This document shows, one piece after another, positions 50,540 through 63,229 of a DNA stretch of 64,000 bases. The stretch comes from Polystyrenella longa (GTDB lineage Bacteria; Planctomycetota; Planctomycetia; Planctomycetales; Planctomycetaceae), in the NCBI RefSeq assembly GCF_007750395.1, contig NZ_CP036281.1:2937001-3001000 (forward strand), read 5' to 3'. Both the position numbers and the translations under genes were made by a program. The notes beneath the pieces were generated by a model. The model did no database searches, was not told where the DNA came from, and saw nothing but the letters and a program-made list of their open reading frames with translations. How positions within the stretch are numbered: position 1 is the first letter of the stretch; each line of letters starts with the position of its first letter.

Positions 50540-50996
50540 CCTGGATTAACTCCAACAGCAAGCCCCTATCACCGGCTGTTGCAAATAGTATAGTTACATC
50601 CACTTAGTGGGTTGTTTTTCGTCAAAATAATAACGAAAATAGAAGTAACAATGCTGGAGCTGCTTTCCCATTCTTTTCGAGCGGGAACTGGCAATCCTAC
50701 CTTATTCTCCAGCATCCGATTTGCAGGACGCAAGCCCTCCCAAAAACCTACCCTACGAAACACTCGCAACATCCGTCTGGGCTAAAACTGCCGTCCTCTT
50801 CATTGATGTGATTTTGACAGCGTTGCAAATCCGGAAAATGCGAAGTGAAGACCTTGACCTCAATTTTGGGGAGGGGTTCCTCAGTAATGTAAGTCTTGAA
50901 ACTTCGAGACAAGTGCTACTGAACTCCGGGACTCGTTTCTAACCGCGTATAAATCACTTCTGTTTGTTAACTCGATAGTTGATTGCTGGAGAAAAG
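50540..50996. other. 457-bp gap with several inverted repeats
   Basis: CAACAGC (50553-50559) pairs with GCTGTTG (50575-50581) just after the nrnA stop, perhaps a terminator without a clear T-run. ATGCTGGAG (50651-50659) pairs with CTCCAGCAT (50707-50715), enclosing a TTCCC/GGGAA stem. These may be a structured leader or repeat. The short rightward frame at 50721-50942 lacks motifs and a convincing ribosome site. Confidence 0.4.
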
Positions 50997-51563
50997 ATGC
51001 AGCGACGCACGCTTCTAATCCGCTTATGTCAGACGATAGCCGCAACTGCGACGGCAGTGTTGATCATTCCTATCGGCCGCTTCATCAGTGCTCCCCTGTT
51101 TCGTAAAAATAAAAAGTCCTCGGGTGCTCAACGCGTGGCTAAACTAACGCAATTGCCAGTAGGTACGCCGACCCAAGTGGCGATCATCGGCAACCGGCAA
51201 GATGGATGGACGCTGCATCCTCAAGCGGTGATTGGAAAAGTCTGGTTGATCCGTCGAAATGAAGAAAGCGAAAAGCCGGAAGACTGTCAGGTCGACGCCT
51301 ACTCTGCCATCTGTCCTCATTTAGGTTGCGGTATCAATCATTCAGCAGATGATCTGCAGTTTGTCTGTCCCTGCCACGAGGCTGTTTTTGATGACCAAGG
51401 CGCCGTCGCGAAACTGGATAAACCGGGATACAACAATCCTTCTCCCCGCGGAATGGATACATTGGATTGCCAAGTCGTTGCCAGTGAATCCGGAAACGAT
51501 CTCTGGGTGGAAGTAGAATATGAACGATTCAAAATAGGCTTAAAAGACAAAGTAAACCTCTGA
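50997..51563 (+). CDS. Rieske [2Fe-2S] protein of a bc-type complex
   Basis: 188 residues from ATG 50997, with GGAG upstream. The N-terminus QRRTLLIRLCQTIAATATAV is a membrane anchor with a twin-arginine-like RR start. The Rieske cluster motif is C106-P-H108-L-G-C111 and C124-P-C126-H127: two cysteines and two histidines bind the iron-sulfur cluster and the other two form the disulfide. The protein carries electrons from quinol at the Qo site to the cytochrome c side. It is followed by the cytochrome b-c gene 62 bp later. Confidence 0.95.
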   Translation: MQRRTLLIRLCQTIAATATAVLIIPIGRFISAPLFRKNKKSSGAQRVAKLTQLPVGTPTQVAIIGNRQDGWTLHPQAVIGKVWLIRRNEESEKPEDCQVDAYSAICPHLGCGINHSADDLQFVCPCHEAVFDDQGAVAKLDKPGYNNPSPRGMDTLDCQVVASESGNDLWVEVEYERFKIGLKDKVNL

Positions 51564-51625
51564 TTCCCGCCGCTGTATTTCTTAGTCGTCGCCCTTTGCT
51601 TTTTAGTAGTTAGTAGAGCTTGATC

Positions 51626-53422
51626 ATGTGGACTCATTTCCGAACCTGGTTGGACGACCGAACGGGCTATCAGAAGATGCTCGGTTTGTACTCACGTCGA
51701 GTTCTCCCAAACGGACCCAGCTGGATGGCGACAACCGCGTCGTGTGTCTTGTGGATGTTCGTCATTGAGTTAATCACGGGATTGGTCCTCCTGTCGAGTT
51801 TCAGCCCGTCCGCCTCTTCCGCATGGGCGTCGGTCTTTTATATCGAACAACTTCCTGCAGGAAGTTTTCTCCGTGGGCTTCATTATTTTTCCGCTCAAGC
51901 TCTGATCATTCTTTTTGGTCTGCATACGATGCGGGTACTCTTAACGGCGGCATTCCGTGAACCTCGCGAACTCGTCTGGATTACAGGCTTACTGTTAGTG
52001 CCTCTATTGATGGTTTGGGCAGTGACTGGAAACCCTCTTCCCGCAACTCAAAAAGGATATTCCCAGATTGAAGTGGAAGCGAACATTCTGGGCGGTTCTC
52101 CCGGAGTTGGCCCCGTAGCGCGCGCTATTCTTATCGGCGGCGATGACGTCGGAAATATCACCCTAACGCATCTGAATTTTCTACACATGGCGATGCTCCC
52201 ATTAATTGTCGGAGTGCTGACCATATTCCATATCTGGCAGTTGTTCAAACATTCTCCGTCGGACAAAGAACTTCCTCCCGAGATGATCGAAGGGGCCGCA
52301 CGCTACTGGCCGGAGCAGACTGTTCGCAACTGGGTGGTCTTCAGTATTGCGTTTGGAATTGTCGCGTATCTCGCCTATACCGTTGGGGCACCGTTAGAGG
52401 TTCCTGCCGATCCGAGTATTCACCATATCGCGCGACCCGAATGGTATTTCCTCTTTCTGTTTGAATTGCGTCGCTACTTTCCACCGGAACTCGATTTCAT
52501 CGCCACGATGGTTATCCCGACAGTCGGTTTACTCTTCATGCTGTTTCTCCCCTTTATTGATCGATTCTGTTCGCAACGTGCAGGGACAATACTGCGGTAT
52601 GTCATCATTATTGGGTTCGTCGTTTCCTGGACGGGGTTGACCATTACCTCTATGAACCGCGATCGAAATGACGAAGCGCTGCAGGCGTCGCGCCAGGAGG
52701 AAGAGCATCTCCGCGAACGAGTACACGAACTCGCGCTGGGTGGAATTCCACCGGAAGGAGCTTCTGCGTTACTTCAGAACGACCCGAAAACTCAGGGGCC
52801 GATCCTGTTTAAAGCCCACTGTGCCAATTGCCATTCTCATGTCGACGAAAATGGTGAAGGTTTTATCGCAGAGAATCAGACGGCGCCGAATCTGTACAAG
52901 TTTGGAAGCCGCGAATGGGTGACTAAGGTCCTCGATCCAGAACAATGGGCGTCCGATCACATGTTCGGAAATACCGAGTTGTCTGAATCAGACATGGCAT
53001 CTGGCGTCGTCGATTTTCTCCCGGATGTCGATGAAGATCTTCCCAAGCTGATTGCCGCACTTTCTGCCGAAGCGGAACTCCCTTACCAGATCGATCAGGA
53101 CACAGAAGACACGGAACAGATTGCCGAAGGAATTGAATTCCTCAAAGATGAAGAAGGCTGTGCCTCTTGTCATAAAGTTTACGATTCTGGTGAGAATGGC
53201 TATGGACCAGATTTAACCTGGTACGGTTCAAAATCCTGGATGAGGGATTTTATCAGTAACCCGGAGCATTCGCGGTTTTACGGGATGGACAATAACTATA
53301 TGCCTGCGTTCGCCCCCAATCCCAATCATCCGACCCGAAATGAGCTGGACGAGCATTCCATACAAATGCTGGTAGATTGGTTACGACAGGATTGGTATGA
53401 AGCTCCTGAGACTGCAGAGTAA
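51626..53422 (+). CDS. Cytochrome b fused to two cytochrome c domains (bc complex core)
   Basis: 598 residues; ATG 51626 is preferred over TTG 51620. The first part is cytochrome b: heme histidines H86 and H100 (13 residues between) and H187 and H202 (14 between), exactly the positions seen in cytochrome b6. The Qo motif PEWY lies in IARPEWYFLFLFELRR near residue 270, and about seven membrane helices are visible. Two heme c motifs follow: CANCH near 402 and CASCH near 512, with YMPAF as a possible axial methionine of the second. The protein would pass quinol electrons through Rieske to its own c hemes. It is tightly linked to the Rieske gene. Confidence 0.92.
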   Translation: MWTHFRTWLDDRTGYQKMLGLYSRRVLPNGPSWMATTASCVLWMFVIELITGLVLLSSFSPSASSAWASVFYIEQLPAGSFLRGLHYFSAQALIILFGLHTMRVLLTAAFREPRELVWITGLLLVPLLMVWAVTGNPLPATQKGYSQIEVEANILGGSPGVGPVARAILIGGDDVGNITLTHLNFLHMAMLPLIVGVLTIFHIWQLFKHSPSDKELPPEMIEGAARYWPEQTVRNWVVFSIAFGIVAYLAYTVGAPLEVPADPSIHHIARPEWYFLFLFELRRYFPPELDFIATMVIPTVGLLFMLFLPFIDRFCSQRAGTILRYVIIIGFVVSWTGLTITSMNRDRNDEALQASRQEEEHLRERVHELALGGIPPEGASALLQNDPKTQGPILFKAHCANCHSHVDENGEGFIAENQTAPNLYKFGSREWVTKVLDPEQWASDHMFGNTELSESDMASGVVDFLPDVDEDLPKLIAALSAEAELPYQIDQDTEDTEQIAEGIEFLKDEEGCASCHKVYDSGENGYGPDLTWYGSKSWMRDFISNPEHSRFYGMDNNYMPAFAPNPNHPTRNELDEHSIQMLVDWLRQDWYEAPETAE

Positions 53423-53580
53423 GGGCGTAATAGATTTCAGTAGCGAGATCGATTCTCATTATTGTGAAAAGTGAGGTCACATACTGGAAACTTTCGCACT
53501 GCATGAAATAATAAAGGAAAGCCCTTTTCAGTATATATTTGGTAGAACAGAAGCACTGTTCCAGATAGAAAGCAATTACT

Positions 53581-54039
53581 ATGTCGACGGATAAAGAACA
53601 GGAAATTATTAAAGAGCTGACCGTATCTTACTGGATGGAAATTGAAACGGTCATGAATTACATCGCGAATTCCACGAATCTGGATGGAGTTCGTGCAGAG
53701 GAAATTAAAAAGTCACTTGCTGCTGATGTACAGGAAGAACTGACCCATGCTCAGAGCATTGCACGACGAATTAAAACCATTGGCGGGACTGTTCCTGGAA
53801 GCGAACAGTTCGCGGCGACTCAGAAACTGCTACAACCTCCCAAAGACACAACTGATGTCATCTCGGTGATTAAGGGAGTGATCGATGCGGAAGAAGGAGC
53901 CATCAAGCAGTACAATAAACTGATTCAATTGTGCGACGGTGTCGATTATGTGACCCAGGATATGTGTATTCAAAACTTGTCTGACGAAGAAGAACATCGT
54001 CGGACATTCAAAGGGTTTCTCTCGGAATACGAGAAGTAA
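53581..54039 (+). CDS. Ferritin-like diiron protein
   Basis: 152 residues, a four-helix bundle. Helix 1 has YWMEIETVMNYIANS, helix 2 VQEELTHAQSIARRI (E-x-x-H), helix 3 IDAEEGAIKQYNKLI and helix 4 LSDEEEHRRTFKGFL (E-x-x-H), the order of metal ligands in ferritin-like proteins. It may store iron or detoxify peroxide. It sits 158 bp after the cytochrome b-c gene, which would fit iron supply for heme and Fe-S proteins, and ends 14 bp from the end of the convergent cyclase gene. Confidence 0.85.
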   Translation: MSTDKEQEIIKELTVSYWMEIETVMNYIANSTNLDGVRAEEIKKSLAADVQEELTHAQSIARRIKTIGGTVPGSEQFAATQKLLQPPKDTTDVISVIKGVIDAEEGAIKQYNKLIQLCDGVDYVTQDMCIQNLSDEEEHRRTFKGFLSEYEK

Positions 54040-54053
54040 TCAAGCAGTGAGTC

Positions 54054-55559
54054 CTATTTCAACTCAAGCAAAATAGCGGGGTCATTCATTTGGTCCCGCT
54101 TTTTGTCGTTCTGACGCCGCTGTCGATCCGTCCGAGTGAGCGCGGATACGTGCTCTGATAAGAATCGGACGGAATAGCGGTTACTCAAAGTCTGCTGTTC
54201 CAACTCGGTCAACTGTAGACAAGCCTCCGCCAATTGCTGCGATTCATACAGTGCCACGATTCTCTCGTACTGCTGGATGAAATCATGTTCGTCCGGACTC
54301 AGTTCGGCACCGTTCAAACTACATAACTCGTAGACGGAATGCGCGTCGCTCATGTTCGGTAACCGGACCTGGCACAATCTGCGGGTGATTGACTCTGCAG
54401 GAAGTTGTTGAACCGTTTCGTGGCTAAGCAGAATCGATGCCTGCATTGGTCGGGTGGCCGATTCTAATCGACTCGCCACGACAACAGCTTCTCCCCGAGG
54501 TCCATACTTAATGCGGCGTTGACTTCCCGAGTTCCCCACCAGTGCTTCGCCTGTGTGAATTCCGATTCCCAGCCTGAGTGGTTGTTCCAGCTTCGGCTGC
54601 CATCGCATACTGATTTCCTCAACCGATTTCTGCATTGCCATGGCCGCGCGGCAGGCGAGCAAAGCATGATCAGACTGGTCTACGGGGGCGTTCCACATCA
54701 CTGCGAGGCCATCACCGTAATAATCGATCAAGACTCCGAACTGGTCAACGGCGGCGGCTGTGAATACTTCCATCAGCTCGGAGAGTAATTCGTAGGCGAC
54801 GGAAGGTTCCAGTTGTTTGAACAAAACCGTCGAACGCTGCAAATCGGCGAACAGTAGCGTAATTTCGCGACGTTGGGCTTTCAGTAAACTGTCGTCAGAC
54901 ATTAGCTGCCGAGTTACTGATTTGGGAAACACCTGATCAAGTAATAATCTTGTGCGTGCATGGTGCTGTTCTTCTTCCAGGCGAATTAAACCCGAAGAAA
55001 TCGCCTCGCTCAGTAGTTGAACCCACCTTGCCTCCAGTTCCCGAATTCCACGACGTTGGTTGCCTGAATAAACACGGCGTTCTCCCCATAGGGCCCCGAT
55101 GATTATTCCCGATTTGTTCAGAATAGGTGAGATGACAACTGAAGTTCCCTCTTCCAGTAAGTTGCGATTCAACAAACTGGAATGAAAACAGGTTTGCCGA
55201 TGACATTCCATTTCTTCTAACAGTGCCGTCTCTTGGTCATCCGCGAATGTGTTCGGGGCCTCAGTGGCCTGCTGTGATTCCCAAACATCGTTTTTAAGCA
55301 AGAAAAGTCGGCCCGTTTCTAAACCGCCAGGTTCGCAAATTAATCGGAGTGCTTCTGCAAAGAACTCTTCCGCCGAGGCCGAAATCCGTTGGAATTGATG
55401 CAAAGCCGAAAACCAGCCATCCAAGGTAACCAGATCAGGAGACCTGAAGGTGGTGTCCGTAGTCATCTCTTCCATCGAGATGAATGTCTGCAAGTACCCC
55501 ACCGGGAGATAAGTTGGCGTCACAGTGGAATTAACTGGGAGATTGGAAGAGGTGTGCAT
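54054..55559 (-). CDS. GAF-domain class III adenylate/guanylate cyclase
   Basis: 501 residues. Roughly residues 50-210 form a GAF domain (EEFFAEALRLICEPGGLETG through GVIIGALWGERRVY). The cyclase domain starts near 230: ITLLFADLQRST (first metal Asp), YYGDGLAVMWNAP (second metal Asp), LGIGIHTGEALVG and YGPRGEAVVVASRLE. In most class III cyclases the last block is V-N-L-A-S-R; here the transition-state asparagine is valine, while the arginine remains. The C-terminal 110 residues are helical. It probably makes cAMP or cGMP. It lies head to head with the redox run whose third gene has cyclic-nucleotide domains. Confidence 0.85.
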   Translation of the reverse strand: MHTSSNLPVNSTVTPTYLPVGYLQTFISMEEMTTDTTFRSPDLVTLDGWFSALHQFQRISASAEEFFAEALRLICEPGGLETGRLFLLKNDVWESQQATEAPNTFADDQETALLEEMECHRQTCFHSSLLNRNLLEEGTSVVISPILNKSGIIIGALWGERRVYSGNQRRGIRELEARWVQLLSEAISSGLIRLEEEQHHARTRLLLDQVFPKSVTRQLMSDDSLLKAQRREITLLFADLQRSTVLFKQLEPSVAYELLSELMEVFTAAAVDQFGVLIDYYGDGLAVMWNAPVDQSDHALLACRAAMAMQKSVEEISMRWQPKLEQPLRLGIGIHTGEALVGNSGSQRRIKYGPRGEAVVVASRLESATRPMQASILLSHETVQQLPAESITRRLCQVRLPNMSDAHSVYELCSLNGAELSPDEHDFIQQYERIVALYESQQLAEACLQLTELEQQTLSNRYSVRFLSEHVSALTRTDRQRRQNDKKRDQMNDPAILLELK

Positions 55560-55903: not shown

Positions 55904-57181
55904 ATGCTGCAAGGGATTCAACAACTCATTTTCTGGACAGGAACCGGACTGATCGGACTGGTATCGCTCCGTCTCGCGATTGCCTGTTTACGCAGTTGTT
56001 CACGCTGGTGGCAGGAAAGTCGGCTATCACGACAGCATCTGATACTGTTGCAATCGCAGTTACAGCAATCGCGTCGTAATTTTCAGAAACTAGGTCCCTC
56101 CCCTGCATGGCAGGGAACTCGCAAGTTTCAGGTACGGAAGATTGTCGTCGAAAGCACGGACTGCCGGTCTTTCTATCTTGTGCCAGAGGATGAAAAACCG
56201 CTTCCCGGATTCATGCCCGGACAGTATCTGACCTTTCAGCTGCCCGTGCCGGGCGAACCTCGGCCTGTTGTGCGATGTTATTCGCTGTCAGAACGTCCCC
56301 GTTCAGAGTGGTATCGCTGTACGATCAAGCAGGAATGGGGGACCGAGTCGACTCCGCCAGGAAAAGGAAGTTCCTTTTTTCATCAGCAGGTTGAAGAAGG
56401 TGATCTGCTGGAAGTGAAAGCCCCCGCAGGCCAGTTCGTACTCGACGTAACCGACCCAAAGCCTGTCGTGTTGCTGGCAGCCGGGATCGGCATCACTCCG
56501 TTGTACAGCATGCTCTCAACAATGTTGCATCATGGTTGGACCGAACCTGTTTATCTGTTTTATTCAGTCCGGGATGGTAGCGGTCACCTTTATAAACAAA
56601 CCTTGAATGACCTGGCTGTCCAACATCGAAATTTCAAACTGATTGTGAATTACACGGCAGCCAAAGAGGACGACCAACCCGACATCGATTATCACTTCGC
56701 AGGTCGCCTGACTGGGGAACTAATCCTACAGCGATTACCATCGACCAACTTTCAGTTTTATCTGTGTGGTCCCGGTGGATATGTTTCGGGAATGTCAGAG
56801 TTGCTCCTCAGTCTACAGGTTCCGGAAACGGATATTCATACAGAATCGTTTGGACCTTCCAGTCGAGCAACCAAACCCAGATCATTGAGTGAAAACTCTC
56901 CTTCGACGACATCAAGCAGTCCAAGCTCGATGCAGGTCAATTTCGAACAGAGTGGTACGCGGCACCATTGGGAATCCGATGCAGAATCCCTTCTCGATTT
57001 CGCTGAAAAACACGGTGTCGTGATTGACTCAGCCTGTCGCGCTGGAAATTGCGGTTCCTGCCTGACTCGTATTCGTTCTGGAAAGGTGAAGTACACCTCT
57101 CCTCCAGGTCTGCAGACAGAATCGAACGAATGCCTTCCGTGTGTCTCTTTGCCAGACGGCGAGTTAGTGTTGGAGGCATAA
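55904..57181 (+). CDS. Membrane-anchored FAD/2Fe-2S oxidoreductase
   Basis: 425 residues. One N-terminal membrane helix (about 8-30) and a short basic coiled stretch precede a ferredoxin-NADP reductase-like module: FMPGQYLTFQLPVPG, RCYSLS (FAD ribityl motif), then VLLAAGIGITPLYSML and FYLCGPGGYVSGM for NAD(P)H binding. The C-terminus is a plant-type 2Fe-2S domain with C378, C383 and C386 in ACRAGNCGSCLTR and probably C413. The order is FAD, NAD(P), Fe-S as in Hcr and phthalate-dioxygenase-like reductases. It would take NAD(P)H electrons to the next carriers. The next gene starts 1 bp after its stop. Confidence 0.92.
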   Translation: MLQGIQQLIFWTGTGLIGLVSLRLAIACLRSCSRWWQESRLSRQHLILLQSQLQQSRRNFQKLGPSPAWQGTRKFQVRKIVVESTDCRSFYLVPEDEKPLPGFMPGQYLTFQLPVPGEPRPVVRCYSLSERPRSEWYRCTIKQEWGTESTPPGKGSSFFHQQVEEGDLLEVKAPAGQFVLDVTDPKPVVLLAAGIGITPLYSMLSTMLHHGWTEPVYLFYSVRDGSGHLYKQTLNDLAVQHRNFKLIVNYTAAKEDDQPDIDYHFAGRLTGELILQRLPSTNFQFYLCGPGGYVSGMSELLLSLQVPETDIHTESFGPSSRATKPRSLSENSPSTTSSSPSSMQVNFEQSGTRHHWESDAESLLDFAEKHGVVIDSACRAGNCGSCLTRIRSGKVKYTSPPGLQTESNECLPCVSLPDGELVLEA

Positions 57182-57182
57182 C

Positions 57183-58211
57183 ATGAGTTCGAATTGGATA
57201 ATAAACTTTCCATCATCATTGCGACTTTTGATTCTCAGCTGGGTATTCTCATTCAGTTGCGACATTGCTTCTGCGCAGAACCTGCATGAACTGCTCATTG
57301 ATCCAGTCAAAGTGGTGGGCCATGAAGAATGCGCCCGATGTCACTTGGCAGAAGTCGCAACTTGGAAACAGACACCGCATAGCCTGACTTTCGAAGAATT
57401 ACACCGCAAACCGGAGGCGCAACAAATCGCCGAACGAATGGGGGAACGGTCCATTAAACGAGGCAAGTTGTGTATCCAGTGCCACTATACCGAACAACAG
57501 AGCGGCAGCAGAACGAAGGCGGTTTCGGGAATCTCGTGCGAATCTTGTCATGGCCCGGCGCAGGACTGGATCAGTTTGCATAATGACTTCGGGGGAGCAG
57601 GTGCCTCGCGAGAAAGTGAGACGGAAGCCCATCAAAAGGAACGGCTCGATACCTGTTTGCGACTGGGAATGCGTAACCCGGAGAATTTGTATCTGGTAGC
57701 CCGAAGCTGTTTTAATTGTCACACCGTTCCTCAGGAAAAGCTGGTAAATGTCGGTGGGCATAAAGCGGGTAGTAGCGACTTCGAATTGGTTGCCTGGTCT
57801 CAGGGACTCGTCCGTCATAATTTTCTTCGCAGTAATGGAGCCAACAATCAGGCATCAGCACAAGCGCGATTGAGGGTGATGTATGTGGTTGGTTTACTCA
57901 CGGATCTCGAATACAGCCTGCGTTCATTGGGGAATGCAACTGAATTCAATCAATTTGCGTTGTCCAACGCATTGCGAATCGCACGATTACGCAAAAGGGT
58001 CCAGAAGGTGAAAGACGCAATTGACCATCCCACTTTTCAACAGGCGTGGACAATCGCGACCACTGTCGAATTAAAGCTGGGGAATGAACAAGCTCTCCGG
58101 GAAGCTGCGGATCAATTGGCCGCGTTGACACACGAGTTTGCTCAAGGGGAATCGGGCGAATCGTTGGAGGCTATTGATCCTCTGTTACCGACTCCGGATC
58201 AGTATAAATAA
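57183..58211 (+). CDS. Exported tetraheme cytochrome c (cytochrome c-554 type)
   Basis: 342 residues. A GGAGG site lies inside the end of the preceding gene. The signal peptide ends near ASAQ. Four CXXCH motifs are CARCH, CIQCH, CESCH and CFNCH, giving four covalent hemes in the periplasm. HEECARCHLAEVATWKQTPH with the distal histidine-rich pattern and SCESCHGPAQDW match the cytochrome c-554/c' family of multiheme carriers. The C-terminal 130 residues are helical and heme-free, with LRIARLRKRV and AADQLAALTHEF. It likely passes electrons between periplasmic partners of this cluster. Confidence 0.9.
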   Translation: MSSNWIINFPSSLRLLILSWVFSFSCDIASAQNLHELLIDPVKVVGHEECARCHLAEVATWKQTPHSLTFEELHRKPEAQQIAERMGERSIKRGKLCIQCHYTEQQSGSRTKAVSGISCESCHGPAQDWISLHNDFGGAGASRESETEAHQKERLDTCLRLGMRNPENLYLVARSCFNCHTVPQEKLVNVGGHKAGSSDFELVAWSQGLVRHNFLRSNGANNQASAQARLRVMYVVGLLTDLEYSLRSLGNATEFNQFALSNALRIARLRKRVQKVKDAIDHPTFQQAWTIATTVELKLGNEQALREAADQLAALTHEFAQGESGESLEAIDPLLPTPDQYK

Positions 58212-58270: not shown

Positions 58271-60010
58271 ATGGCGTCGACGACTACAGCAGAAATCGCC
58301 AAACCGAAGCGATGGGATGTTCCCTTCGGTGAGGAGATGACCACAGTCGCCGTAGAGGAATTGCTCAAGCTCGCTCCGTTTCGAGATATGACCGTCGACA
58401 ACTTTCCTCGCAGTTGCTCCTTATCGGACTTGCTACTGCATGATACGCGGTTGAGAGAATACCAACCGGGCGACCTGATTGTGCGAGAGGGAGACTATGG
58501 TAATTCCGCTTTTCTCGTAGTCACTGGAGAAGTGAGAGTCGTATTGGAATCCCTCTCTCCGGAACGACTGGGACGGCCTCCCGTAAAGTCGAAAAAGTCC
58601 TTCTGGTCACTCTGTCGCGATTTATTAACGCCCGTTTCTTATCCCGAAGTCCGAGATAAAAACAATATTTCTTCAACGACCGCGGACCTTTTGAAGCCTC
58701 TGTTTTTACAGGATGTTCCCGGACTACTGGATAAACACCAGACGTTGCAATTGGGGGCGGGTGAGATTTTTGGAGAGTTGGCAGCCTTGGGAAGAACGCC
58801 TCGAACGGCAACGGTTTTTGCTGAATCAGAAGTAATTCTTCTCGAAATCCGGTGGCAGGGTCTCCGGGATTTGATGAAATACGATACCGCACTCAAGTCA
58901 CATCTTGATCAACTTTATCGCCAGAACAGTCTCGAAAGCCATTTGCGGGAAACTCCTTTTTTCAACCAGGTTCCTCCCGATCAATTGCGACAGATCGCAG
59001 AGCAAGTTGAGTTTCTATCTTACGGACAGTTTGAATGGTTTCGAGATTACCAACTAAATCTAAAATCGATGACGGATGCCGAACGACTTGAAATGGAGCC
59101 GATTATTCTGACAGAAGCCGCTTATGCCGAAGGGATCTATCTGGTGCGATCAGGGTTTGTGAGGGTCACGCATAAGTATGGTCAAAGTGAGCGTACCTCG
59201 TCTTATCTACACAAAGGCCAGTTTTATGGCCTCGCTGAACTTTCCCTGAACTGGCAGGCCTCCCGCCAGACCGGATGGCTTAATTCATTGCGGGCAGTTG
59301 GCTATGTCGATCTGTTACGAATTCCGACGCCTGTCGTAGAAGAGTTTGTCTTGCCGACATTATCGGCCGTAGATCTTGGACGCTACATTGCTGAGGCAGA
59401 ACAGCAAGTAGAACGTAAGCAAGGACGAACCGAATCTGTTGGAGATGGGTCGAAGCAGACTGAATCGAACGCAGGCTTACTGGAGTTCCTGGTCGATCAA
59501 CGGTACATCAACGGCACGAAAACGATGCTTATTGATATGAATCGCTGCACTCGTTGCGACGATTGTGTCCGGGCGTGCTCCGATGCTCACGGTAATAATC
59601 CTCGTTTTCTACGTTCAGGACCAACACACGAACAATTCATGGTGGCACATGCCTGTATGCATTGCCTTGATCCCGTTTGCATGATCGGTTGCCCAACCGG
59701 TGCGATTCACCGGGATGCGACGATGGGAACAGTATTGATCAACGACCAGACCTGTATTGGTTGTACAACGTGCGCCAACAGTTGCCCTTATGACAACATT
59801 CAAATGGTGGAGATTCGGAACGATCAGGGACAGATACTGCGAGATGAGGAAAACCAGCAGCCGGTGATGAAAGCGACCAAGTGCGACTTGTGCCACGACC
59901 TGCAAAATGGCCCCGCCTGTCAAAACGCTTGCCCCCATGATGCGCTCGTCAGAATATCGACCTCTGAACTTGATCAACTGGAACCCTGGACCAAACGCCA
60001 CGCCGGATAA
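58271..60010 (+). CDS. Dual cNMP-binding / four-cluster 4Fe-4S fusion protein
   Basis: 579 residues without signal peptide. Residues 40-210 are a cyclic-nucleotide-binding domain with a 60-residue insert; its phosphate cassette FGELAALGRTPRTATVFAE looks intact. A second, degenerate one spans about 225-380: GQFYGLAELSLNWQ lacks the arginine-alanine pair. From 420 on come 16 cysteines in four groups: CTRCDDCVRAC, CMHCLDPVCMIGC, CIGCTTCANSC and CDLCHDLQNGPACQNAC, the DmsB/HybA-like pattern that binds four 4Fe-4S clusters. It would be a cytoplasmic electron wire whose function responds to cAMP or cGMP. It lies 59 bp after the tetraheme gene. Confidence 0.9.
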   Translation: MASTTTAEIAKPKRWDVPFGEEMTTVAVEELLKLAPFRDMTVDNFPRSCSLSDLLLHDTRLREYQPGDLIVREGDYGNSAFLVVTGEVRVVLESLSPERLGRPPVKSKKSFWSLCRDLLTPVSYPEVRDKNNISSTTADLLKPLFLQDVPGLLDKHQTLQLGAGEIFGELAALGRTPRTATVFAESEVILLEIRWQGLRDLMKYDTALKSHLDQLYRQNSLESHLRETPFFNQVPPDQLRQIAEQVEFLSYGQFEWFRDYQLNLKSMTDAERLEMEPIILTEAAYAEGIYLVRSGFVRVTHKYGQSERTSSYLHKGQFYGLAELSLNWQASRQTGWLNSLRAVGYVDLLRIPTPVVEEFVLPTLSAVDLGRYIAEAEQQVERKQGRTESVGDGSKQTESNAGLLEFLVDQRYINGTKTMLIDMNRCTRCDDCVRACSDAHGNNPRFLRSGPTHEQFMVAHACMHCLDPVCMIGCPTGAIHRDATMGTVLINDQTCIGCTTCANSCPYDNIQMVEIRNDQGQILRDEENQQPVMKATKCDLCHDLQNGPACQNACPHDALVRISTSELDQLEPWTKRHAG

Positions 60011-60062: not shown

Positions 60063-60887
60063 ATGCAAACTGACTCCTTTACATTCAGACGACTCCGCAA
60101 TGGCTTAGTGACTGGCCTGGCTGCGCTTAGTTTTTGGGGTCTGACAGAGGTTGGTCGAGCACGGTTCTATGATGTCTCTTTTTATCTGGGATATTTGCTG
60201 GCAGGAATGATTGTCGTTTTAGCGGGGTTCAATCTACGAAAGAAATTGACGACATTCCGAGTCGGTACCGCCTCCAGTTGGATGCAGTTTCATTTGTACC
60301 TTGGCCTGTTGACTCCTATTGTGTTCGCTCTTCACATTGATTGGTCCTGGCCACAGGGACTGTTTGAAATGGCCTTGTCAATCATTTATGCCGCCACCTT
60401 TTTCAGTGGAGTGTTTGGTTTATATTTCACCAGGCGTCTGCCGAGAGTGTTGACTCGTTTACCCGTGGAATTGATTTATGAGGAATACGAAGCACATTCT
60501 AACACGCTCAAAGAAGAAGCCATTCTTGAAGTACAAAGCTCACTTCAAGACTCAAATGGTCTGTCCGAAATGTATGCGAACCGGTTAGTACAGTTTTTCT
60601 CCCGTCAGCGGTCGATTGGTTATTACTTGTGGCCCAGCATTCATAAACGAAAGAAACTGATCCGCTATTTACGAAGTTGCCATCGATACGCTTCAGACGA
60701 AGAACGCTCTCGATTGAATCGAATTGAAACCCTGGTCGCGCAGCGTGACGACTACGATTTTCACCATGCTCAGCAATGGAAGTTGAGGGTTTGGATTTTC
60801 GTTCACCTTTCTTTGACATGGAGCCTGTTGGCATTGATGTTGGTGCATCTTGTGTTTGTCCATCTTTATCGGGGGGCATATACATGA
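60063..60887 (+). CDS. Heme-b-like membrane protein of the redox cluster
   Basis: 274 residues from ATG 60063, beyond an overlapping upstream frame. About four or five membrane helices. Candidate heme ligands are His in MQFHLYLGLLTPIVFALHID (helix 3) and three histidines in HLSLTWSLLALMLVHLVFVH (last helix), spacing compatible with two b hemes. A 90-residue charged loop (LPVELIYEEYEAHS to AQRDDYDFHHAQQW) lies between. Such proteins link cytoplasmic iron-sulfur subunits to periplasmic cytochromes, as NapH or HybB-type partners do. It overlaps the next gene by 4 bp (ATGA) and follows the 4Fe-4S gene by 52 bp. Confidence 0.78.
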   Translation: MQTDSFTFRRLRNGLVTGLAALSFWGLTEVGRARFYDVSFYLGYLLAGMIVVLAGFNLRKKLTTFRVGTASSWMQFHLYLGLLTPIVFALHIDWSWPQGLFEMALSIIYAATFFSGVFGLYFTRRLPRVLTRLPVELIYEEYEAHSNTLKEEAILEVQSSLQDSNGLSEMYANRLVQFFSRQRSIGYYLWPSIHKRKKLIRYLRSCHRYASDEERSRLNRIETLVAQRDDYDFHHAQQWKLRVWIFVHLSLTWSLLALMLVHLVFVHLYRGAYT

Positions 60888-63229
60888 CATTACCAAGTCG
60901 AGAATATCTCCGACCACAGCAGAAATGGATCTGTGGGCGTCAATGCGAAGGTTCTTGTGTGCAAGGCCCAACTAAATCCGGCCGTTGCGAAACGACTTCC
61001 GCATGCCAGCCTGTCAAACGAGAGAACCGTTGGTCCTGCAATCGATCTACTTTACAAGGTGGTCCGTGTGAAAAAGGCCCTTCTCCGGACGGAGACTGCT
61101 GCCCGGTGCATCCTCCTTGTGTTCCCCGGCGAAGCCTACGTTCGCAACGGGGGATTGCGGCGGGACTCAGTTTCGTATTTACGATTGGTGTTCTTCTGGT
61201 GGTATTCGGTTTGACTAACTGGCGAACAACGATTGCTCCGGGGGCCTTAGCCAGTCCCCATGCGCAACTGTTTCAATCTCAATCTGAATCCGAAAAATGC
61301 ACTGCCTGCCATCAGGAATTCGGTTTCCAATCGGGAGAATGGTTGACGGCATTCTGGGTGACAGATCGCGGGGCGGACCATCCCCTGTCGAAAAGCTGTA
61401 TGGCCTGTCACGGGAACAATTTTTCTGCCCAATGGGCGAGTGAGCCTCATTCGTTACCGGGGAAAGTAACCAGGGAACTAACGGATCAGATCCATGCCCG
61501 ACTTCAACATCAGTCTGCAGATAAAAACATCGTCCAGTTGGCCAGCTTTCTCCCTGCGACCACAGTAAAACCGGAATGCGCGTATTGCCATCAAGAGCAT
61601 CAGGGAGCCGATCATGATTTGACGGCGATGACTGATAAACAGTGTTTGTCCTGCCATGCACAACAGTTTGAAAGTTTTTCTTCTGGCCATCCCGAGTTTG
61701 ATCAGTGGCCATTGCAACGAACACCTTCTTTGATATTCAACCACGTCACTCATGCGGGTAAACATTTTACGGACCGCAAACAAGCATTCGATTGCAGTAG
61801 TTGCCACTATGATGCTAACACGCATGAGATCGTTTCCGTCGTAAGTTTTGAGCAATCCTGTGCTGATTGCCATCAGGACCAATTGAAACAGGCCATCGCC
61901 GAAGGGATTCCTTTGTTGGCATTGCCCATGATTGATCGAGTGGCTCTGGGACAACGATTGGATAGCACCTTCAGATGGCCAACCGAAGCAGTGGGTGACT
62001 TTGATGGTCAGTTGCCGCTGTTAATGGAGTTCCTACTGAATCAGCCAGGGGCGTCTTCGCATCCAGAGCCGTTTACAGCGGGAATCGACTTCAGCCTTGT
62101 TGATCCTGATCATTCTCAGGACCTCGATTTAGTTGCCGAATTGATACCGCAGATACGACAACTCTGGTTTGATTTGGCATCAAAAGGTCAAAACGCCTAT
62201 TTAAAACGTATCGAGCATCTGTTGAATCGGTCCCTTAGTGAAAAAGAACAGCGTGAACTCAGTTCACTGCTACCGCTAGATCTTTTTAGAATCAGTTACG
62301 ATCGCTGGTTTGAGGTGGCACCAGAAGGTGAGTCGGCCTACATCGAATCGGCGGAAGGAATTCGATTAGTCGCAGCAGCGGAGCAAAGGGAACCTCGACT
62401 CTATATCGCAGAGGAGATGATCATCCTTCCCGGAGATAAACTACTGCTCGACTCGCTTCCTCCAGGGGAATGGACAGGCGCTGCGACCACGAATGATGGT
62501 GCGGCGGCACCCTCCGTTAAAAAAGAAGAAAATAAACCTCCGACAGTAACTGAGAGTGAACAAGAAAATCCCGTTCCATCCGCCACTTTAGAAGCCACGG
62601 ATCCAAAGTCTGTGCCGCCTGTAAAAACCGAGGAACCAACACCGTCGCTCTTAATTCCCATCGACCATACAAATGGAGGTGAGACAACCTCGTTGGATTG
62701 GAAAGAGATTCCACAGCGGGGATGGTACCGCGATGATTTAAAACTGACGATTGGGTATCGACCTGTTGGTCATGCTGACCCATTTATGACGAGTTGGCTG
62801 GAGCTCGCTTTCATTACGAGCAGTGATGATTCTTCACGCGCGATGACATCGTTGCGAAATCAGATGAAAGAGTCGGCACCTTTTCGCAATTGTCTCAGCT
62901 GTCATGATCTCGAAAGAGGTCGTTCAGGCGACGAACAATTTAATTGGCTCTCGAATTCAAAGCAATTCAGGCTCAAAACCTTCACTAAATTTTCGCACCG
63001 CCCTCACCTGACGATCCCTGAAATGCGGGATTGCCGACATTGTCATGCATTGGAAACAGAACAACCCGCCGCCATCGGTAGCGAATTCTCTAAACTCTCG
63101 ATTCAGAGTTGCACCGTGTGTCATAACCCGCAAGGAGCCAAAGAGGGTTGTCGCGAGTGCCACAACTACCACGTTGACCATCGCAGTTTAATCCTCTTTG
63201 ATGGGACAAAAAAAAGTCGTGCGGAATAA
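60884..63229 (+). CDS. Membrane-bound decaheme cytochrome c with N-terminal Cys-rich repeats
   Basis: 781 residues from ATG 60884. Residues 15-79 hold two similar cysteine-rich units, W-I-C-G-R to C41 and W-S-C-N-R to C79, each with C-x-x-G-P-x3-G-x-C, ten cysteines in all and no CXXCH. RRSLRSQRG precedes one membrane helix (about 91-112), so this part should be cytoplasmic. Ten CXXCH motifs follow outside: six from 139 to about 330 (CTACH, CMACH, CAYCH, CLSCH, CSSCH, CADCH) and four from 670 to about 760 (CLSCH, CRHCH, CTVCH, CRECH). A low-complexity P/E/T linker lies between the two heme groups. It could pass electrons across the membrane to periplasmic hemes. Confidence 0.9.
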   Translation: MTLPSREYLRPQQKWICGRQCEGSCVQGPTKSGRCETTSACQPVKRENRWSCNRSTLQGGPCEKGPSPDGDCCPVHPPCVPRRSLRSQRGIAAGLSFVFTIGVLLVVFGLTNWRTTIAPGALASPHAQLFQSQSESEKCTACHQEFGFQSGEWLTAFWVTDRGADHPLSKSCMACHGNNFSAQWASEPHSLPGKVTRELTDQIHARLQHQSADKNIVQLASFLPATTVKPECAYCHQEHQGADHDLTAMTDKQCLSCHAQQFESFSSGHPEFDQWPLQRTPSLIFNHVTHAGKHFTDRKQAFDCSSCHYDANTHEIVSVVSFEQSCADCHQDQLKQAIAEGIPLLALPMIDRVALGQRLDSTFRWPTEAVGDFDGQLPLLMEFLLNQPGASSHPEPFTAGIDFSLVDPDHSQDLDLVAELIPQIRQLWFDLASKGQNAYLKRIEHLLNRSLSEKEQRELSSLLPLDLFRISYDRWFEVAPEGESAYIESAEGIRLVAAAEQREPRLYIAEEMIILPGDKLLLDSLPPGEWTGAATTNDGAAAPSVKKEENKPPTVTESEQENPVPSATLEATDPKSVPPVKTEEPTPSLLIPIDHTNGGETTSLDWKEIPQRGWYRDDLKLTIGYRPVGHADPFMTSWLELAFITSSDDSSRAMTSLRNQMKESAPFRNCLSCHDLERGRSGDEQFNWLSNSKQFRLKTFTKFSHRPHLTIPEMRDCRHCHALETEQPAAIGSEFSKLSIQSCTVCHNPQGAKEGCRECHNYHVDHRSLILFDGTKKSRAE

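Follow-up and report, generated by a model that had tools for sequence, protein, structure and literature searches.

Does a protein that carries two cyclic-nucleotide-binding (CNB) domains ahead of an iron–sulfur module place a chain of electron carriers under the direct control of a cyclic nucleotide? The question is raised by a gene of the planctomycete Polystyrenella longa, which lies in a stretch of 64,000 nucleotides (contig NZ_CP036281.1, positions 2,937,001 to 3,001,000), hereafter the window, to which plain coordinates refer. The protein, here called the sensor protein, and its parts are located as follows.

58271..60010, + strand: sensor protein, in the order CNB1 (with insert), CNB2, 4x[4Fe-4S]; ATG start, 579 amino acids
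58451..58558, + strand: first half of CNB1, residues ~61–96, matching positions 2–31 of Pfam cNMP_binding, with a conserved REGDYGNSAF motif
58559..58741, + strand: insert in CNB1, residues ~97–157, of low AlphaFold2 confidence; 41–74 amino acids in homologues
58742..58879, + strand: second half of CNB1, with the phosphate-binding cassette FGELAALGRTPRTATV (residues 167–182) and the family motif LEIRWQGLRD
58961..59350, + strand: CNB2, residues ~231–360, with a cassette that is degenerate in all members
59471..59965, + strand: 16-cysteine 4x[4Fe-4S] module, residues ~401–565

A preliminary description of this DNA, made from its letters, had proposed two CNB domains and a four-cluster module on one chain, with an intact phosphate cassette in the first domain, a degraded second domain and a 60-residue insert in the first, and all four features were recovered. 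Pfam cNMP_binding matched the protein with E=3.6e-25 in three stretches, corresponding to CNB1 in two halves and CNB2, and Fer4_7, Fer4_11 and Fer4_10 matched with E=3.5e-12 to 3e-10, all matches exceeding the curated cut-offs. The cluster cysteines are C426/429/432/436, 462/465/470/474, 495/498/501/505 and 538/541/550/554, and the closest solved relative of the Fe–S part is HycB3 of the hydrogen-dependent CO2 reductase (E=3e-18). Residues 19–384 of the AlphaFold2 model, which is of moderate quality (pLDDT 71.6, pTM 0.59) and does not define the packing of the CNB and Fe–S parts, align to the tandem CNB domains of the PKA/PKG regulatory subunits; individually, CNB1 matched the CNB domain of the M. 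loti channel (Z 15.6, 131 residues, rmsd 2.6) and CNB2 matched CNB-B of PKG II (Z 17.8, 144 residues, rmsd 2.6). The cassette residues G168, E169 and R178 are all present in CNB1. CNB2 carries YGLAELSLNWQASRQTGWLNSLRAVGY and is missing the Glu/Arg cassette, although its fold scores as a CNB domain. The insert between the two sequence halves of CNB1 is a family-wide feature. Hydropathy analysis found no N-terminal hydrophobic segment, and the protein is therefore presumed to be cytosolic.

The architecture is not confined to this genome. Full-length homologues, 39–77% identical, were found in Planctomycetota, Verrucomicrobiota, Nitrospinota, Nitrospirota and metagenome-assembled genomes of Hyphomicrobiales, and the close family is present in 28 of the 294 sampled Planctomycetota genomes. 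The recurrence of the same architecture in full-length homologues of many phyla rules out a chance fusion or a misassembly, and the CNB-FeS arrangement is a conserved family rather than a one-off fusion. Across 49 aligned members the 16 cluster cysteines are invariant, the only exceptions being a truncated sequence and another in which Ser occupies two of the sites. The CNB1 cassette retains Gly in 49/49, Glu in 47/49 and Arg in 48/49 of the same members, the exceptions in the direct family being a Gln for Arg substitution in L016 and the absence of Glu in L024 and L025, whereas all 43 non-redundant members have a degenerate CNB2 cassette. Mean pairwise identity is 63% in the CNB1 cassette, 34% in the equivalent stretch of CNB2 and 25% in the insert, compared with 78% in the LEIRWQG stretch directly after the cassette and 62% in the Fe–S module. 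In the direct family, the CNB1 cassette is thus more strongly constrained than the greater part of the CNB region. The residue following the cassette arginine is Thr, Val or Ser across the family; none of these discriminates between cAMP and cGMP at this site, and a choice between the two ligands on the basis of the cassette was therefore dropped.

Conservation of the cassette arginine in homologues had been set beforehand as a test of the sensor idea, and its outcome depends on the branch: the residue is kept in the direct family, as counted above, and is gone from L069 and L070, which form a distant branch (25–27% identical) that has lost the arginine in both CNB domains. The CNB1 cassette is accordingly not universal. 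Both cassettes are intact in other distant relatives, including the NuoG-like fusion L066. The latter (L066:7635-9935, + strand) joins a NuoG-like 2Fe-2S/4Fe-4S N-terminus to a pair of CNB domains, both cassettes intact, and to a four-cluster module; cNMP sensors are thus present in more than one type of redox enzyme. Separately, the close homologues L053 and L057 (genomes G018 and G164) contain an additional FHA domain located between their two CNB domains, a possible added phosphothreonine input.

To which electron-transfer system the module belongs can be read from the neighbouring genes.

55904..57181, + strand: membrane-anchored FAD/NAD(P) reductase with a C-terminal 2Fe-2S domain, flavohemoprotein-reductase-like
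57183..58211, + strand: tetraheme c554-like cytochrome
60063..60887, + strand: inner-membrane diheme b-type protein with four histidines; two WX3HX13H motifs and SGVFG, the "IMP" signature of PCC4
60884..63229, + strand: decaheme cytochrome, with a Cys-rich N-terminal head, then a TM helix, then 10 CXXCH motifs

These genes form a compact operon in the order reductase, tetraheme cytochrome, sensor protein, membrane protein and decaheme cytochrome, in which the start of the decaheme gene overlaps the stop of the membrane-protein gene (ATGA). The operon is conserved in Planctomycetota, Verrucomicrobiota, Nitrospinota, Nitrospirota and Pseudomonadota. A scan for promoters and terminators yielded sites no more common than in shuffled sequences. 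The reductase is presumed to be the cytosolic electron partner of the sensor protein, and the motif sequences of the membrane protein are WMQFHLYLGLLTPIVFALH, WIFVHLSLTWSLLALMLVH and SGVFG. Upstream of the operon and of a divergent cyclase gene, positions 50979–54039 encode a Rieske protein, a cytochrome b fused to two c-type hemes (a bc-type complex) and a ferritin-like protein, a gene order also seen in L007.

The preliminary description had further likened the cluster module to DmsB and HybA, a likeness that holds for the Fe–S fold and not for the partners, which are subunits of neither a molybdoenzyme nor a hydrogenase. HycB3/HycB4, DmsB, HydN and HybA have the sixteen-cysteine, four-cluster ferredoxin fold in common with the sensor protein, but they have no sensor domain, and the enzymes they serve are molybdoenzymes or hydrogenases. 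The equivalog scores of the sensor protein fall far below every NCBIfam cut-off (71 versus 260 bits for HydN, 65 versus 214 for DmsB), and assignment as a HybA/DmsB-type subunit was rejected on this ground and because the close-family operons that were inspected contain no recognised catalytic subunit of either kind.

In relatives from different phyla, these operon genes occur together with genes for a pentaheme cytochrome and a barrel protein of ~500 residues. The genes for these two proteins adjoin the operon in most relatives and lie 1 Mb away in the window genome, where they stand side by side.

G000:C1:3981610-3986052 (3.98 Mb): pentaheme and porin-like genes of the window genome

The AlphaFold2 model of the barrel protein matches porins of the MOMP/AlgE/OprD type, with E down to 6e-13, and its C-terminus ends in the terminal aromatic residue typical of outer-membrane proteins. 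Among the 28 genomes with the close sensor family, the pentaheme gene is present in 26 (Fisher p=2e-25) and the barrel gene in 25 (p=1e-23), both values before any correction for the relatedness of the 294 genomes compared. Duplications within the conduit cluster were also observed, of the tetraheme gene in L084 (G137) and of the pentaheme gene in L085 (G101).

This gene content corresponds to PCC4, a porin–cytochrome gene cluster predicted from genomes by He et al. 2017 (PMC5566968), who list Planctomycetes among its carriers. As described there, PCC4 comprises a porin, periplasmic cytochromes with 4, 5 and 10 hemes, and an IMP with two WX3HX13H motifs and SGXXG; in Subgroup II, a pfam13247 Fe–S gene lies upstream of the membrane-protein gene and a redox gene upstream of the tetraheme gene. 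The 4-, 5- and 10-heme cytochromes, the porin, the IMP motifs and the upstream PF13247 gene of Subgroup II are all found here: the sensor protein matches PF13247 (E=1.1e-10), and its gene is directly upstream of the membrane-protein gene 60063–60887. The window genome differs from the described cluster in that its porin and pentaheme genes are 1 Mb from the remaining genes. On this evidence, the sensor protein is very probably the cytosolic subunit of a trans-envelope conduit of the PCC4 type. The role of PCC4 in extracellular electron transfer is itself drawn from genomes only (PMC5566968), and He et al. proposed that an extracellular donor feeds the quinone pool. The main text of PMC5566968 mentions the Fe–S gene but contains no occurrence of "cyclic" or "cNMP", and no mention of a cyclase link or of the Cys-rich decaheme head was found in it. 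A further candidate, the porin–multiheme system of Verrucomicrobia (PMC5615132), was excluded, its periplasmic cytochrome having eight hemes. Conduits without the Fe–S sensor gene occur in L073–L075, as in PCC4 Subgroup I, and the sensor subunit is therefore an optional module that conduction does not need. Distant CNB-FeS proteins in L067, L071, L069 and L070 adjoin diheme membrane proteins and 10-, 15- or 17-heme cytochromes; they represent a broader group of related inner-membrane modules whose outer parts differ.

One feature of the decaheme cytochrome follows the sensor family closely. Its N-terminus (60884–61150) contains two CxxGPx4GxC units ahead of the membrane helix, and this Cys-rich head, which matches no Pfam family, should face the cytosol, as predicted from the charge around the TM helix; it could bind a metal or an Fe–S cluster. 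A head with at least one unit, usually two, is present in 31/31 loci with the close sensor family and in 0/6 loci with only distant sensor relatives or none (p=4e-7, with no correction for relatedness). The sensor protein and the Cys-rich head probably touch.

Class III cyclases, which could supply a ligand, lie beside the operon in three architectures.

54054..55559, − strand: class III nucleotidyl cyclase, transcribed divergently from the operon at a distance of 345 bp
L007:4084-5664 and L010:4669-6660: divergent cyclases of one type with the window copy
L082, L083, L090 and L091: FHA plus cyclase, located in L082, L090 and L091 between the genes for the pentaheme and tetraheme cytochromes
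L087: cyclase plus FHA

With one genome taken per genus, a cyclase lies within 10 kb of the operon in 4/13 genera against 0.23 expected (P=5e-5; the genomes are related), and 9/13 genera have no cyclase nearby. The metal-binding residues D239 and D283 and the transition-state R364 of the window cyclase are invariant among five aligned sequences. Its substrate-specifying Lys...Asp pair is reversed to Asp...Lys and the transition-state Asn is replaced by Val, so that it lacks both the Lys...Asp pair and the Asn of a class III adenylate cyclase. The window cyclase is a candidate source of the second messenger, and the reversed pair and missing Asn leave its product, or even its activity, uncertain. 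The window genome encodes a second cyclase, 18 kb from the pentaheme/barrel pair, that is 36–37% identical over 600 residues to the L082 type. All operon-linked cyclases except that of L087 share the reversed Asp...Lys pair with this second enzyme, and the reversed-pair cyclases possibly have an unusual nucleotide specificity. The reversed pair was also seen in the L065 cyclase, and the Asn to Val change in the window and L007 copies. Together, the pairing with the decaheme head and the bordering cyclases provide two new links in support of regulation.

The earlier proposal of a cNMP sensor that acts directly on electron flow finds partial backing: the constraint on the CNB1 cassette, the PCC4-type partners and the nearby cyclases speak for it, and the distant branch without the arginine speaks against it. 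Overall, the comparison of sequences supports a predicted working cNMP site on this subunit, and binding of a cyclic nucleotide by CNB1 is likely. In the mechanism we propose, a chain of carriers would link NAD(P)H and the reductase (55904–57181), by way of the four [4Fe-4S] clusters and the b hemes of the membrane protein, with the decaheme and tetraheme cytochromes, and these with the pentaheme cytochrome at or in the outer-membrane barrel. Electrons could leave along it for an acceptor outside the cell or enter from a donor. With its NAD(P) reductase, the operon would permit electron export as well as NAD(P)+ reduction. A class III cyclase would make the cyclic nucleotide and CNB1 would bind it; the usual movement of the CNB hinge helices would then shift the conserved LEIRWQG stretch, CNB2 and the linker, and the hinge shift would alter the docking of the Fe–S module on its membrane and decaheme partners, switching the current post-translationally. 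CNB2 would bind no ligand and would act as a coupling or docking domain. That ligand binding in CNB1 gates the flow of electrons, and does not act on assembly or on nothing at all, is in our view about as likely as not.

Of the alternatives, the most substantial is that the CNB domains are a docking or assembly scaffold that binds no nucleotide, the protein being a constitutive Fe–S subunit of PCC4. The degeneracy of CNB2 in every member, the large insert that splits CNB1 and the distant branch that has lost both cassettes while remaining linked to the same 5-heme/barrel pair would all suit such a scaffold, but it leaves unaccounted for a CNB1 cassette and following stretch that are the best conserved in the CNB region, with the arginine nearly invariant, and cyclases that adjoin the operon beyond chance; we regard it as unlikely, though deserving of weight. 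Slightly less probable still is that a cyclic nucleotide does bind and controls assembly, location or turnover of the complex, for example through membrane recruitment via the decaheme head, and not the rate of transfer. A docking surface, as this reading would have it, is suggested by the strict pairing with the Cys-rich head, and the FHA domains in L053 and L057 hint at several signals on one platform.

The signal might also travel the other way, with the redox state of the clusters altering the CNB domains and the protein buffering or reporting the cyclic nucleotide pool. The two directions are allosterically equivalent and cyclases adjoin the operon, but the protein has no known output domain and cyclases are unlinked in most genera, which makes this reading quite improbable. 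A chance or misassembled fusion, or a pseudogene, has practically no probability left: nothing was found in its favour, and the same architecture and operon recur in full-length homologues of at least five phyla. We favour gating of electron flow by CNB1 because the cassette constraint is found in CNB1 only, the operon is conserved, cyclases border it and the decaheme head pairs with the sensor. Against gating count the conduits without the subunit, the Arg-less distant branch, the exceptions among direct members, the atypical window cyclase and the 9/13 genera without a cyclase. The model as a whole, a cytosolic conduit subunit in which a cyclic nucleotide in CNB1 would switch the current after translation, has in our judgement equal chances of being right and wrong. 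The narrower idea of a dedicated circuit, in which a local cyclase with unusual residues and a CNB sensor on a four-cluster wire would form an allosteric current switch, is more tentative.

Set beside known systems, the protein resembles the PKA/PKG regulatory subunits in its tandem CNB domains and standard cassette in domain 1, and it differs from them in that its output is a 4x[4Fe-4S] module and no kinase, domain 1 carries the ~60-residue insert and domain 2 has lost its cassette. The proposed circuit, if true, would be for electrons something like a cyclic-nucleotide-gated channel. In Shewanella, cyclic AMP control of extracellular electron transfer through Crp is described as transcriptional (PMC4417206, PMC4585640), whereas here the sensor lies inside the electron-transfer protein. 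The open-licence literature yielded nothing relevant that pairs cyclic-nucleotide domains with Fe–S proteins or extracellular electron transfer.

Regulation of extracellular electron transfer is known so far mostly at the level of gene expression. If the model is true, a cyclic-nucleotide site at the cytosolic entry point of the conduit would allow fast allosteric control of the current, and the protein would offer a ligand-switched electron wire for bioelectronics. PCC4, a predicted and uncharacterised conduit, would thereby be joined to a signalling pathway, an idea that R178 and the decaheme head make testable.
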